Shown here in pieces: positions 35,329-40,627 of a stretch of 64,000 bases of DNA. Every line of letters starts with the position of its first letter. Within the stretch, counting starts at the first letter, position 1. The notes below the pieces were generated by a model. It was not told where the DNA came from, did not search any database, and saw nothing but the letters and a program-made list of their open reading frames with translations. The stretch is from Oscillospiraceae bacterium (lineage in GTDB: Bacteria > Bacillota > Clostridia > Oscillospirales > Ruminococcaceae), in contig JAGAJN010000031.1 in the NCBI GenBank assembly GCA_017828975.1, forward strand, positions 160,146 through 224,145, given 5' to 3'. Both the position numbers and the translations under genes were made by a program.

Positions 35329-35357
35329 TTGACAGCAGGAAAATTTGGGTTTATAAT
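35329..35357 (+). promoter_or_regulatory. Consensus promoter of the aro leader and operon
   Basis: Perfect TTGACA (35329-35334) and TATAAT (35352-35357) with a 17-nt spacer. Transcription should start near 35364, giving a leader of about 223 nt before aroF that contains the Phe-rich leader ORF. Confidence 0.85.
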
Positions 35358-35389
35358 GTAAAAGTAAAAATTATTGGGAGAAATTCGCT

Positions 35390-35497
35390 ATGATGAACCT
35401 TTTTGCTGCGGCTAATTTTATATTTTTTGCCGGTCTGGGCTTTTATAGCTTCGGACGATTTTCTCATGCAAAAAATAAGAATTGCTGCAACAGGTAG
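35390..35497 (+). CDS. Phe-rich leader peptide of the aro operon, 35 aa (putative)
   Basis: A short ORF with its own ribosome site (GGGAG, 9 nt before ATG) and a perfect promoter 33 nt upstream. It encodes 35 residues, of which seven are Phe (positions 5, 10, 12, 13, 18, 21, 24) and one Tyr (19). It ends 38 nt before a terminator hairpin and 90 nt before aroF. Its last three codons before the final Arg (TGC TGC AAC) form one arm of an antiterminator. The composition and position fit a ribosome-stalling leader peptide that senses charged tRNA-Phe. A small membrane peptide is the alternative reading, since residues 4-22 are hydrophobic. Confidence 0.65.
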   Translation: MMNLFAAANFIFFAGLGFYSFGRFSHAKNKNCCNR

Positions 35498-35570
35498 TAT
35501 TTTAGGCGTATGCCCGATAAATATTGTATCTTAACTGCGGCTATTTGTGTAGTTCGCAGCTTTTTTATTT
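35433..35570 (+). promoter_or_regulatory. Attenuator of the aro operon: pause hairpin, antiterminator, terminator
   Basis: Three pairings are visible. A pause-type hairpin at 35433-35456 (GTCTGGGCT with AGCTTCGGAC) covers the Phe/Tyr codons. An antiterminator pairs GCTGCAAC (35484-35491) with GTTcGCAGC (35552-35560). A terminator CTGCG (35535-35539)/CGCAG (35555-35559) is followed by TTTTTTATTTT. The antiterminator and terminator share 35555-35559 and exclude each other. A ribosome reaching the leader stop would cover the 5' antiterminator arm; one stalled at Phe24 would not. Confidence 0.6.
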
Positions 35571-35586
35571 TAGGAGGAATTTTCAG

Positions 35587-36600
35587 ATGATCATTATTTT
35601 AAAGCAGAATGCTGCACAGGAAAGCATTGACAGACTTCGCTCTGTCCTCGATAAGCATGACGTCAAGATCAACGAGATCACAGGTGCCCACAAGAACATT
35701 ATGGGTCTGGTCGGCGACACATCTCACATCGACATTGAGTCCCTCATGGCTCAGGACTGCGTTGAAAATGTTCAGCGTGTACAGGAGCCTTACAAGAACG
35801 CCAACAGAAAGTTCCACCCCGAGGACACCGTTATCGACTGCGGAAACGTGAAGATCGGAAATGGTTCGCTCCAGATAATTGCGGGCCCCTGTTCTGTTGA
35901 GTCCGAGGAGCAGATAATCACCACTGCCGTTGCCGTTAAGGAGGCAGGTGCAACTATGCTCAGAGGCGGCGCATTCAAGCCCAGAACATCTCCCTACTCC
36001 TTCCAGGGACTCCGTGAAAAGGGCATTGAGCTGCTTATTAAGGCAAGAAGCATCACGGGTCTGCCCATCGTTACCGAGATAATGAGTGCTGCGGACATCG
36101 ACCTTTTCGCCGATATTGATGTTATCCAGGTAGGCGCAAGAAATATGCAGAATTTTGAGCTTCTGAAGGCTCTCGGACGTGTGAACAAGCCTGTTCTTCT
36201 GAAGAGAGGTCTTGCAAACACCATTGAGGAGCTGCTTATGTCCGCCGAGTACATAATGTCCGAGGGAAATCAGCAGGTCATTCTTTGCGAAAGAGGTATC
36301 AGGACCTTTGAAACAATGACAAGAAATACCTTCGATGTTTCCGCTATCCCCCTTATTAAGCAGAAATCCCATCTGCCCGTATGCGCAGACCCCTCTCACG
36401 CAGGCGGTCTGACATCTCTTATCGAACCCCTTTCTCTGGCAGCTATCGTTGCGGGCGCAGATGCTCTTGAGATCGAAGTTCACAACGACCCCAGAAGCGC
36501 ACTGTCCGACGGCGGTCAGCAGCTGACTCCCGCACGCTTTGCGGAGGTTATGGAGAAGATCAAGGCTGCCGCAGGTTTTATGGGACGTTCCATTGTCTGA
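35587..36600 (+). CDS. aroF: 3-deoxy-7-phosphoheptulonate synthase (DAHP synthase)
   Basis: DAHP synthase joins phosphoenolpyruvate and erythrose 4-phosphate, the first step of the shikimate pathway. The 337-residue protein is the type I-beta form with a ferredoxin-like N-terminal regulatory domain (about 1-70), which in Thermotoga DAHP synthase mediates Tyr/Phe feedback. The catalytic barrel has IIAGPCSVES (about 97-106), GGAFKPRTSPYSFQG (about 125-139) and DPSHAGG near 274. The ATG at 35587 has AGGAGG 9 nt upstream. It is first in the aroF-B-A-C operon. Confidence 0.95.
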   Translation: MIIILKQNAAQESIDRLRSVLDKHDVKINEITGAHKNIMGLVGDTSHIDIESLMAQDCVENVQRVQEPYKNANRKFHPEDTVIDCGNVKIGNGSLQIIAGPCSVESEEQIITTAVAVKEAGATMLRGGAFKPRTSPYSFQGLREKGIELLIKARSITGLPIVTEIMSAADIDLFADIDVIQVGARNMQNFELLKALGRVNKPVLLKRGLANTIEELLMSAEYIMSEGNQQVILCERGIRTFETMTRNTFDVSAIPLIKQKSHLPVCADPSHAGGLTSLIEPLSLAAIVAGADALEIEVHNDPRSALSDGGQQLTPARFAEVMEKIKAAAGFMGRSIV

Positions 36601-36620: not shown

Positions 36621-37679
36621 ATGCAGACTATCAGAGTGAATGCTTCTCAGAGCTATGATGTTGTTATCGGACATAATCTGCTGGACAGCTGCGGCGAGAG
36701 GATAACGCAGGTCAGCAAGGCTGCAAAGGCGGCGATAGTTTCCGATGACACGGTTTACGGCTTATACGGCGAGCGGGTTGAAAAGTCCCTGAAAGCTGCG
36801 GGATTTGAGGTCGTAAGCTTCACATTCCCTCACGGCGAGGCTTCAAAGAGCATTGCTGTTCTTTCGGAAATTTTCGATTTTCTTGCGGAAAATCATATTA
36901 CCCGTTCGGACGTGATAGTTGCCCTGGGCGGCGGCGTTACGGGAGATATGGCGGGATTTGCGTCTGCATCATATCTCCGGGGAATAGATTTTGTTCAGAT
37001 ACCCACAACTCTGCTGGCACAGGTGGATTCCTCGGTCGGCGGAAAAACTGCTGTTGACATCAAGGCAGGGAAAAATCTCGTCGGCGCATTCAAGCAGCCT
37101 AAGCTTGTTATCTGCGATATTGACGCTCTTTCCACACTTCCCGAGGAATTTTTCATTGACGGAATGGGCGAGGTAGTCAAGTACGGAATGATCAAATCCG
37201 CAGGACTTTTTGACAAGCTGTCCCGTCACAATTTGGGAAATATCGGTGAGATACTTGAAGATGTCATTGCCGAATGTGTTTCCATTAAGCGTGACGTGGT
37301 GGAGAACGACGAGTTCGACACGGGGGAGAGAATGCTTCTCAACTTCGGTCACACGCTGGCACATTCCATTGAGCAGTATTACAATTACACGGGAATTTCC
37401 CACGGCAAGGCGGTTTCTGTGGGAATGATGATGATGACTCGTCTTGCGGAGGATAACGGACTTTGCCGCAAAGGTCTTACGGACGAGCTGACAGCCTGTC
37501 TTGACCGATACAAGCTGAATATTTCCGTTGAACCAAAGCCCTATGAGCTGGGCGAAGCCGCACTCAACGACAAGAAGAGAATGGGCGGCTCCATAAACAT
37601 AATTATCTGCGAGGACGCGGGAAAGTCGTTTATCAAGAAAATGCCCGTTCCCGAGTTTTTAGAGATGCTGAAAGGATGA
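36621..37679 (+). CDS. aroB: 3-dehydroquinate synthase
   Basis: AroB cyclises DAHP to 3-dehydroquinate with NAD+ and a divalent metal. The 352-residue sequence has the dinucleotide and carbaphosphonate region GGGVTGDMAGFAS (about 97-109), the PTTLLAQVDSSVGGKT motif (about 130-145), and metal ligands Glu and His in GEVVKYGMI and NFGHTLAHSIE. AATAGGAGATAAG precedes the start. It is the second gene of the aro operon. Confidence 0.96.
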   Translation: MQTIRVNASQSYDVVIGHNLLDSCGERITQVSKAAKAAIVSDDTVYGLYGERVEKSLKAAGFEVVSFTFPHGEASKSIAVLSEIFDFLAENHITRSDVIVALGGGVTGDMAGFASASYLRGIDFVQIPTTLLAQVDSSVGGKTAVDIKAGKNLVGAFKQPKLVICDIDALSTLPEEFFIDGMGEVVKYGMIKSAGLFDKLSRHNLGNIGEILEDVIAECVSIKRDVVENDEFDTGERMLLNFGHTLAHSIEQYYNYTGISHGKAVSVGMMMMTRLAEDNGLCRKGLTDELTACLDRYKLNISVEPKPYELGEAALNDKKRMGGSINIIICEDAGKSFIKKMPVPEFLEMLKG

Positions 37680-37683
37680 TGAT

Positions 37684-38928
37684 ATGAACGTTACCGTTTA
37701 TCCCGGCAAGCTTTCGGGAAGCGTGGATATCCCGTCCTCGAAAAGCTTCTCTCACCGCTGTTTGATAGCTGCCGCACTTTCCGACGGAGTGTCGGTTGTG
37801 TCCAATGTTACAAATTCCGTGGACATTGCGGCGACTGTTTCCGCTATGACGGCAATGGGCGCTGAAATTTCCGTAAACGGCAGCGAGTACACGGTCAAGG
37901 GGATAGCGTCCCCGAAAGAGTCCGCTGTAATTGACTGCTGCGAAAGCGGTTCGACACTGCGTTTTCTTATTCCCGTAGCGTCTGCTTTGGGAATTTCCGC
38001 TGAATTTCGGGGAAGGGGAAAGCTGCCCGAAAGACCTATCACCCCATATATCAGGGAAATGAGCAAAAAGGGCGTTGCTTTTGATTATGAGAACACTATG
38101 CCCTTTTCCGTCAGCGGAAAGCTGTGCCCCGGTGAATATCTCCTTGAGGGGGACATTTCTTCCCAGTTTATTACGGGACTGCTGTTTGCGCTGCCACTTT
38201 GTGCGGGAGATTCCGTCATAAAGCTGACCTCCCGTCTGGAATCAAAGCCTTATGCGGATATGACGGTTTCCGTTCTTAGGGATTTCGGAATTTCCGTGAG
38301 AGAAGCAAATATTGACGGACAGCTTTGCTATCTTATAAGAGGAAATCAGCGTTATAAGGCGAAAAACTGCGCCGTTGAGGGAGATTTTTCGCAGGCGGCA
38401 TTCTTTTTTACTGCAAATGCGCTGGGTTCATCGGTCGATGTAAAAAATCTTAATAAAAATTCTGTACAGGGTGACAAGAAAATCCTTGAAATTTTAGATG
38501 AAATAGGTTATAATAAGAATAGCGGCGTTCTGGGCAGTTTTACTGCGGACGCCACAGATATTCCCGACTTGGTGCCGATACTTACGGTGCTTGCTTCTTT
38601 TACGTCTGAAAAGTCGGAAATTGTCGGCGCAAAGCGGCTTAAAATCAAGGAAAGTGACCGTCTGACGGCTATTGCAAATGCGCTGAATGCTATCGGCGGC
38701 AATGTCAGAGCTTTTGAGGACAGGTTGGAGATAATTCCCGTTAAAGGCTTCAAGGGCGGTACTGTTGACGGCTGCAACGATCACAGAATAGTAATGTCCG
38801 CAGCAATTGCGGCTCTCAGGGCTGATGCTCCCGTTACAATTCTGGGCGCAGAGGCGGTGAACAAATCCTACCCCACCTTCTTTGATGATTTTGCACGTCT
38901 TGGCGGAAAAATTGAAATCACAGGATAA
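37684..38928 (+). CDS. aroA: 3-phosphoshikimate 1-carboxyvinyltransferase (EPSP synthase)
   Basis: AroA transfers enolpyruvyl from PEP to shikimate 3-phosphate. The 414-residue protein has the two inverse domains of the family. Key motifs are PSSKSFSHRCLIAAAL (about 18-33, PEP/S3P binding), CCESGSTLRFLIP (about 85-97, the usual GNSGT replaced by ESGST) and LKIKESDRL near 320. The start has AAAGGATG 6 nt upstream and is 4 nt after the aroB stop. Confidence 0.95.
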   Translation: MNVTVYPGKLSGSVDIPSSKSFSHRCLIAAALSDGVSVVSNVTNSVDIAATVSAMTAMGAEISVNGSEYTVKGIASPKESAVIDCCESGSTLRFLIPVASALGISAEFRGRGKLPERPITPYIREMSKKGVAFDYENTMPFSVSGKLCPGEYLLEGDISSQFITGLLFALPLCAGDSVIKLTSRLESKPYADMTVSVLRDFGISVREANIDGQLCYLIRGNQRYKAKNCAVEGDFSQAAFFFTANALGSSVDVKNLNKNSVQGDKKILEILDEIGYNKNSGVLGSFTADATDIPDLVPILTVLASFTSEKSEIVGAKRLKIKESDRLTAIANALNAIGGNVRAFEDRLEIIPVKGFKGGTVDGCNDHRIVMSAAIAALRADAPVTILGAEAVNKSYPTFFDDFARLGGKIEITG

Positions 38929-38951: not shown

Positions 38952-40043
38952 TTGTCATCTTTCTGGAACCACAACATTACAATATCTATATTCGGAGAAT
39001 CACACGGGCCTGCCATTGGTGCAGTTATCGACAATCTTCCTCCCGGGGAAGCCATTGATATGGAGGAGCTTCTTTCATTCATGGAAAGAAGAGCGCCCAA
39101 AAAGGACAAAACCTCCACACAGCGCAGAGAAAGCGATATGCCGAACATTATGTCGGGCGTTTACAACGGCAGGACCACAGGCACTCCGCTTGCTGTTTTC
39201 ATCAACAACACAGACCAGCATTCTCAGGACTACGGAAACGTGGCAAAGCTTGCCCGTCCCGGTCACGCAGACTACACAGGTGCGCTTCGTTACAAGGGCT
39301 TCAATGACGTAAGAGGCGGCGGACATTTCTCCGGACGTCTGACTGCTCCGCTGGTTTTTGCGGGTGCTATCTGCGGTCAGATACTTGAAAGACGGGGCAT
39401 TTACACCGCAACTCATATCAAGCAGATTCACAAGATAAAGGACGCTTCCTTTGACCCCACAAATATCACCAGAGAACAGGCTATCGCTCTCAGGCACAAG
39501 AAATTCCCCGTTATCAACGATAAAAAGGGTGAGGCGATGGTTGCCGACATTGAAGCGGCAAGAACCTCGCTGGACAGTCTGGGCGGTATTATCGAATGTG
39601 CTGTTATCAACGTTCCCGCAGGCGTCGGCTCGCCTATGTTCGAGGGCCTGGAAAACAGCATTTCACGGCTTGTTTTCGGAATTCCCGCTGTTAAGGGAAT
39701 CGAGTTCGGTGCGGGCTTCAATGTGGTAAATCTCACGGGAAGTCAGAATAATGACGAGTTCTATGTGAACGAGCAGGGACATGTTCTCACGAAAACAAAC
39801 AATCACGGCGGCATTCTGGGCGGTATTTCCTCGGGAATGCCTATCGTGTTCCGCACAGCCTTCAAGCCCACTCCGTCAATTGCCAGGGAGCAGAACACTA
39901 TTGACTACTCTACCATGACAAACGACGTTATCACCGTCAAGGGCAGACACGACCCCTGCGTTGTGCCCAGAGCAGTTCCCTGCGTTGAGGCGGCTGCGAA
40001 CATTGCAATTCTTTCCCATATGCTGGATTATCCTAATTTCTGA
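38952..40043 (+). CDS. aroC: Chorismate synthase
   Basis: AroC makes chorismate from EPSP using reduced FMN. The 363-residue protein begins with the family signature (GESHGPAIGAVIDNLPPG, about 15-32). It also has RRESDMPNIMSGVYNGRTTG and the RGGGHFSGRLTA motif (about 121-132). A C-terminal GGISSGMPIVFRTAFKPTPS segment is present. The start appears to be TTG at 38952 with AAAGGG about 10 nt upstream; no ATG is available in frame before the first signature. Confidence 0.95.
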   Translation: MSSFWNHNITISIFGESHGPAIGAVIDNLPPGEAIDMEELLSFMERRAPKKDKTSTQRRESDMPNIMSGVYNGRTTGTPLAVFINNTDQHSQDYGNVAKLARPGHADYTGALRYKGFNDVRGGGHFSGRLTAPLVFAGAICGQILERRGIYTATHIKQIHKIKDASFDPTNITREQAIALRHKKFPVINDKKGEAMVADIEAARTSLDSLGGIIECAVINVPAGVGSPMFEGLENSISRLVFGIPAVKGIEFGAGFNVVNLTGSQNNDEFYVNEQGHVLTKTNNHGGILGGISSGMPIVFRTAFKPTPSIAREQNTIDYSTMTNDVITVKGRHDPCVVPRAVPCVEAAANIAILSHMLDYPNF

Positions 40044-40072: not shown

Positions 40073-40627
40073 ATGGACGGAGATATTTCACATATTGAAG
40101 TGAATTCGCTTCATTCGGTCAAGGTCTTGCTTTGCTATCTGCTAAACAAGCTCAATGTCCCCATAACACATGACGAGCTTGTGGAGATCATTATGGAAAG
40201 CGAGATCATCAACTATTTCTATTTTTCCGACGCTATTGCCGTCCTTGAAGAAACAGGTGCGGTCATTGTCAGCGAAAAGGACGGTAAGCAGGTCTATACC
40301 CTCGGTGAAAAGGGCAAAATGAGTGCCGAGTTTTTCTCCGATAATGTCCCGGGGATATTCAGAAAGCGTCTTATGACGGCTGCGCTGCGGCATATGTCAT
40401 TGAAGCGCAGGAATGCCATCGTTGACAACACTATCACCGACGCTCCCAACGGCTGCTATCTCAACACCGTCATAAAGGACAGCGGTTTTGATCTGCTGAA
40501 AATGAGCATATACGCTCCCGACCGTGAGCAGGCGGAGTTTATGAAGGACAAGATCTTTGCCGACCCTGTTGAATTCTATCGCAGGGTAATAGATTTTGTC
40601 CTAGACAATAAGGAAGAAGAACCGTAA
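40073..40627 (+). CDS. DUF4364 family protein
   Basis: This 184-residue protein matches DUF4364, a Clostridia family with a winged-helix-like N-terminal half (LLCYLLNKLNVPITHDELVEII near residues 22-43) and a C-terminal alpha/beta half. The family may be DNA-binding, but no role is established. It lies 29 nt after aroC with a GGGAGGG site and before the operon terminator, so it is the last gene of the aro transcript. Confidence 0.82.
   Translation: MDGDISHIEVNSLHSVKVLLCYLLNKLNVPITHDELVEIIMESEIINYFYFSDAIAVLEETGAVIVSEKDGKQVYTLGEKGKMSAEFFSDNVPGIFRKRLMTAALRHMSLKRRNAIVDNTITDAPNGCYLNTVIKDSGFDLLKMSIYAPDREQAEFMKDKIFADPVEFYRRVIDFVLDNKEEEP

Follow-up and report, generated by a model that had tools for sequence, protein, structure and literature searches.

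A predicted Phe/Tyr leader-peptide attenuator ahead of the shikimate operon in Ruminococcaceae and other Clostridia

In an Oscillospiraceae genome, the shikimate operon aroF-aroB-aroA-aroC lies behind a short Phe-rich ORF and a terminator hairpin. From this ORF and its control codons, the terminator, a set of alternative RNA pairings and the recurrence of the arrangement in relatives we infer, with high confidence, a ribosome-mediated transcription attenuator predicted to sense charged tRNA-Phe (and tRNA-Tyr) and to control entry into the shikimate pathway. All features are located in the window, i.e. the whole 64,000-nucleotide stretch of DNA that was analysed (Table 1). The locus combines a short ORF, equipped with a ribosome-binding site and with control codons for end products of the pathway, with an intrinsic terminator that separates the leader from the first gene, a pairing of segments 2 and 3 that is exclusive with the terminator pairing 3:4, and a 1:2 pairing that would act as protector when no ribosome loads.

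Table 1. Positions of the leader, terminator and operon features in the window
Feature	Position	Strand	Remarks
Sigma-70 type promoter, TTGACA-17-TATAAT	35329..35357	+	12/12 consensus positions; TTGACA 35329-35334, TATAAT 35352-35357
GGGAG, Shine-Dalgarno-like site of leader ORF	35376..35380	+	
Leader peptide ORF, 35 codons	35390..35497	+	7 Phe, 1 Tyr
Segment 1, first Phe block	35399..35430	+	28 bp with 35468-35497 in the ribosome-free fold
P1, intra-ORF hairpin	35433..35456	+	Codons Phe18 and Tyr19 at the loop
Segment 2, predicted antiterminator 5′ arm	35479..35489	+	Core GCUGCA 35484-35489
Segments 3 and 4, terminator hairpin	35535..35559	+	5′ arm pairs with segment 2
Terminator T-run, six T	35561..35566	+	
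AGGAGG, Shine-Dalgarno of aroF	35572..35577	+	
aroF, DAHP synthase, ferredoxin-like N-terminal domain	35587..36600	+	Start codon ATG at 35587; NF006421, PF00793, PF18152
aroB, 3-dehydroquinate synthase	36621..37679	+	PF01761, PF24621
aroA, EPSP synthase	37684..38928	+	PF00275
aroC, chorismate synthase	38952..40043	+	PF01264
DUF4364 gene	40073..40627	+	PF14277; possibly the last operon member, from its position

A preliminary description of this DNA had listed the promoter, the ORF with its aromatic codons, the hairpin with its T run, and AGGAGG followed by aroF, and each of these was found as described. The promoter is the best among five promoter-like sites listed. The leader peptide reads MMNLFAAANFIFFAGLGFYSFGRFSHAKNKNCCNR and ends at a stop codon. 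Its Phe codons stand at positions 5, 10, 12, 13, 18, 21 and 24 and its Tyr codon at 19, and all seven Phe and the Tyr are retained in the same-genus copy L002. The nearest named record, an uncultured Ruminococcus (L031), has an aroF that is 99% identical. Folding of the terminator hairpin yields −10.3 kcal/mol. A simple terminator scan of the window did not have this hairpin among its listed sites, and the automated hairpin finder chose a different one; 35535-35559 was entered by hand for the duplex comparison below. Folded as a whole, the stretch 35480-35573 is no more stable than its shuffles (z −0.84). We judge the leader of the window to be more than a chance ORF because of the comparison with its relatives. 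Two elements were absent from the preliminary description, namely P1 and the long pairing of segment 1 with 35468-35497.

The leader ORF recurs upstream of aroF. We sampled 330 nt upstream of aroF homologues at 110 loci and at 60 further places in genomes of the family; the resulting 170 upstreams were reduced to 156 by dropping 14 that were identical, short or N-containing. An ORF starting with ATG, 15 to 60 codons long and carrying at least six Phe, Tyr or Trp residues within 14 codons (level 6) was present in 112 of the 156 upstreams; one reverse complement among the 156 and 3.7% of the dinucleotide shuffles passed the same test. At level 8 the respective figures were 69/156, 0/156 and 0.14%. 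A hairpin of −10 kcal/mol or lower with a T-run was found between leader end and aroF in 90 of 112 stretches versus 7 of 224 shuffles, and mostly started 15 to 50 nt past the leader stop. Conserved Phe codons and covarying stems, which the preliminary description had suggested looking for in related genomes, are both in place, the former within the aromatic-rich ORFs of these 112/156 upstreams and the latter among 18 aligned leaders (see below). In other Clostridia, the ORF occurred at 50 of 67 places (35/67 at level 8) drawn from 41 additional families, 32 of which had a qualifying ORF at level 6 and 23 at level 8; this set, unlike the 156 upstreams, carries no shuffle control and consists of the loci L181-L209 less two from the own family (27 of 29) and 40 hand-picked places, about one to two per family. 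Within it, L224, trimmed to 160 nt, was scored as a miss, and some level-6 ORFs (e.g. L222, L229 and L248) are unlike the rest. Some of the 44 upstreams out of 156 that failed the ORF test have another gene directly before aroF. A search farther upstream at 14 failing loci uncovered a clear leader at three (L003, L004 and L005) and none in the available DNA of the remaining 11.

The Phe attenuation proposed in the preliminary description is supported, with one correction concerning the amino acids. The composition of 103 leaders is 18.0% Phe, 9.1% Tyr and 0.9% Trp; as the leaders were selected on their content of Phe, Tyr and Trp, the total is biased, whereas the split among the three residues is not. 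At least three Phe together with at least one Tyr occur in 93 of the 103, Tyr is missing from two, equals or outnumbers Phe in 27, and Trp is present in 32. The leader of the window has a ratio of 7 Phe to 1 Tyr. The best reading of these sequences is that the leader family would respond to Phe and usually Tyr. In many leaders the aromatic block is followed by GFFCC or GYFCC (e.g. L060, L061, L064 and L124).

A gene-blind search points to a close association with the operon. Twenty leaders hand-picked for resemblance supplied an 89-nt stretch for a covariance model, which was run against 148 genomes of the family, with stricter filters applied above 40 genomes. The model matched 23 of the 148, once in each, with 22 matches before aroF and one before aroB; eight of the matched genomes had contributed sequences to the model and the other 15 had not. 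The gene behind the match was read by eye from translations at L256, L265, L267 and L271 and assigned by place at the other 19. Many leaders of a different style go undetected by the model. In the source genome, the available DNA upstream of pheA and tyrA reached at most three and five aromatic residues per 14 codons, below level 6, the true start of pheA being uncertain.

The alternative pairings were assessed by comparing duplex energies of four segment pairs in cis and in trans, i.e. with segments from other genomes. From 112 leaders, 101 remained after removal of 11 without a hairpin according to the finder, 88 passed the filters and 78 were nonredundant. At these 78 loci the leader end paired better with the terminator 5′ arm of its own genome (2:3, mean z −1.08, p 3.9e-12) and the leader start better with its own leader end (1:2, mean z −0.94, p 1.3e-9), p-values that are optimistic because the loci are related by descent and the number of independent cases is overstated. 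No cis signal was seen in the same 78 relatives for the leader end with the terminator 3′ arm (2:4, mean z −0.09, p 0.58) or for the control pair of leader start and terminator 5′ arm (1:3, z −0.14, p 0.31). Since the null pairs reuse the same segments, shared G+C within a genome alone cannot explain the positive results. This pattern supports the classical order 1:2, 2:3, 3:4 as the predicted architecture of the family. In the window, the predicted 2:3 pairing joins the core of segment 2 to UGCGGC (35536-35541), and the 5′-arm stretches able to pair with segment 2 are 35536-35541 and 35543-35546. The 2:3 duplex energy of the window alone is unexceptional (z −0.17), so that support for it comes from the family and from the folds described next. 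The preliminary description had drawn the antiterminator as 35484-35491 with 35552-35560, that is with the 3′ arm of the terminator. The core of this pairing does appear in a late fold of the window RNA; the partner supported by the 78 relatives is the 5′ arm.

According to the mechanism that we propose, the first ribosome would reach the leader stop when Phe and Tyr are plentiful and mask segment 2, whereupon the terminator 3:4 would form ahead of aroF. When charged tRNA-Phe or tRNA-Tyr is scarce, the ribosome would stall within the Phe/Tyr block, at the latest at Phe24, and leave segment 2 free to pair with the emerging 5′ arm of the terminator. Formation of this antiterminator would allow RNA polymerase to continue into aroF-aroB-aroA-aroC. 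If no ribosome is loaded, segment 1 would pair with segment 2 and the terminator would form. P1 might make the polymerase pause so that the first ribosome can catch up.

Folds of the window RNA in these states were computed at equilibrium with assumed ribosome footprints, and the differences among them are small. With a ribosome at the leader stop the terminator forms, and without a ribosome the long 1:2 helix is accompanied by the terminator. With the ribosome at Phe24, 35484-35489 pairs with 35536-35541 while the RNA grows to 35558. For RNA ending at 35561-35564 the terminator is the lowest fold in spite of the stalled ribosome, and from 35567 onwards the lowest fold is again one without the terminator and contains 35484-35488 paired with 35556-35560. 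Among the 78 relatives, the mean terminator probability was 0.854 with a stalled ribosome, 0.958 with the ribosome at the stop and 0.937 with a stalled ribosome and a shuffled spacer. Compared with the shuffled spacer, the stalled probability was lower by more than 0.1 in 12 of 78 relatives and higher in none (p 0.005). The equilibrium effect is thus weak, and the terminator is favoured in most relatives even with a stalled ribosome, so that a switch between the two folds would have to work kinetically.

P1 is a hairpin of 9 bp that presents aromatic codons at its loop. In an alignment of 18 leaders hand-picked for resemblance, with the structure drawn from one of them, 91.7% of the cells are paired and double changes occur at six of the nine pairs. 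The covariation score of 0.466 compares with 0.301 after shuffling (0/500) and with at most 0.183 when the structure is slid along the alignment, a control that favours the native position because the structure was taken from one aligned sequence. RNAalifold, unaided, predicts P1 and the terminator from the 18 leaders, both with covariation. Pair counting is limited to P1 because MAFFT left the 2:3 arms unaligned. When synonymous codons were reordered without altering the peptide or the codon set, the native order gave the better fold for 75 of the 78 leader ORFs (mean z −2.23, p 4e-14; z −2.15 for the ORF of the window), compared with 50 of 88 for 36-codon windows of aroF (mean z −0.33, p 0.008). 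Because P1 covaries and the codon order favours folding, the ORF appears, on sequence grounds, to be under selection for both its codons and its RNA shape.

These observations also bear on what the peptide itself might do. Instead of hungry codons, the nascent peptide could cause the stall by arresting the ribosome from within the exit tunnel, possibly with Phe or Tyr bound as a ligand, and the recurrence of some non-aromatic residues, e.g. in GFFCC, would suit such a peptide. We regard this as very improbable, as peptide sequence and length are highly variable and the recurring residues are explicable by RNA pairing, at least in P1. Even less credit is given to a functional small membrane protein encoded by the ORF, with a terminator that merely separates it from aroF. 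The leader peptide is indeed hydrophobic and Phe-rich, and peptide styles such as FTYFF..SFFFGF.FFWR and SLGFYFSAGFFCC recur among relatives. However, sequence and length vary widely with Phe and Tyr interchanging, and neither Pfam nor NCBIfam holds a family for the window leader and three others (one chance-level NCBIfam match, E 0.41). Covariation in P1, the codon order that favours RNA folding at a fixed peptide in 75/78 leaders, and the cis pairing of the leader end with the terminator likewise speak against such a protein. The least probable alternative is a riboswitch or T-box governing the terminator with an incidental ORF, for although the source genome has T-boxes and the leader RNA is structured, Rfam yields neither a match at gathering score nor a T-box among relaxed matches at the site, and a Phe/Tyr-rich ORF is present again in 32 of the 41 additional families.

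In detail, at gathering score Rfam 15 had no match at the site and only a tRNA elsewhere; the relaxed score gave six matches at the site, all far below the gathering score. The T-box model RF00230 had no match there, and its nine matches in the source genome, four of them over the cut-off, lie elsewhere (eight are the loci L171-L178). Of the genes behind these eight loci, two could be recognized by eye, serS (L177) and a metA-like gene (L174).

A short leader bearing control codons, segments 1 to 4 and a terminator are features that the clostridial leader shares with the enterobacterial pheA and trp attenuators. Unlike these, it precedes the first gene of the common pathway, mixes two aromatic codons and contains an extra conserved hairpin wholly within the ORF. 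T-boxes are commonly assumed to be the usual amino-acid sensors of Firmicutes. In the same phylum, the T-box riboswitch (RF00230) regulates genes in response to tRNA charging; it binds the tRNA directly and has no leader ORF. It also occurs in the source genome and has no match at the aroF leader. The preliminary description called a leader-peptide attenuator notable in Firmicutes, which mostly use T-boxes or TRAP; leader-peptide attenuators of Firmicutes are, however, already in print (PMC9413887, PMC8632094). Closest by description is uORFC-13-1 upstream of Acholeplasma aroF, a short uORF with Phe codon(s), a possible promoter, a ribosome-binding site and an intrinsic terminator, features that the leader of the window has as well; its authors proposed attenuation (PMC8632094). 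It has 24 representatives, only from Acholeplasma and environmental sequences, with one or more Phe within a run of U; the clostridial set is larger and differs in its mixed Phe/Tyr blocks and its traced 1:2, 2:3, 3:4 order. His leaders proposed in Firmicutes including Eubacteriales (17 species, three groups) resemble ours in the proposed leader-peptide attenuation and differ in having His codons before his operons (PMC9413887), and hisZ and lysQ attenuators are likewise in print (PMC4833913). A 2008 T-box survey mentions that tyrosine biosynthesis in the B. cereus group is under T-box control; its text contains neither aroF nor DAHP (PMC2494555). Searches of the open PMC library turned up no paper on a Phe/Tyr leader ahead of aroF in Clostridia. 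With the Acholeplasma, His and hisZ/lysQ leaders in print, the clostridial leader belongs to an already known type of attenuator, widespread and new here; the hairpin inside its ORF and its mixture of Phe and Tyr codons may set it apart.

If this reading is correct, ribosome stalling would set the supply of aromatic amino acids in many Clostridia. We consider it possible, at slightly less than an even chance, that one old, fast-evolving type of Phe+Tyr attenuator governs entry into the shikimate pathway across much of Clostridia, with control codons displayed in the loop of a hairpin inside the ORF and a layout selected at the RNA level; throughout the class it would then stand in place of T-boxes at this step. 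The many diverged leaders offer material for studying the evolution of codons and RNA structure under two simultaneous constraints. Such short leader ORFs are easily overlooked.

Several loci depart from the common arrangement. At L003-L005, a gene of about 340 to 390 codons, LRR-like by eye, sits between the Phe/Tyr leader and aroF, and the leader would also control this gene as it lies between the two. A gene directly upstream of aroF was likewise seen at L006, L009-L012 and L032-L034, with no leader in the available flank; a Phe-rich ORF at L009 was rejected as a leader, for it precedes the promoter-like site. At L267 (genome G084), a leader of the same type with a terminator precedes the gene read by eye as aroB. 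In the ribosome-free fold of the window, a helix of 35371-35378 with 35513-35520 partly pairs the Shine-Dalgarno site of the leader itself, which, in this model, could add a further control of leader translation. Finally, four records labelled Lentisphaerae/Oligosphaeraceae (L062, L068, L070 and L093) carry an aroF 62-66% identical to that of the window, accompanied by an ORF rich in Phe and Tyr and by a terminator-like hairpin, which may reflect transfer of the leader-aroF unit or mis-binning.
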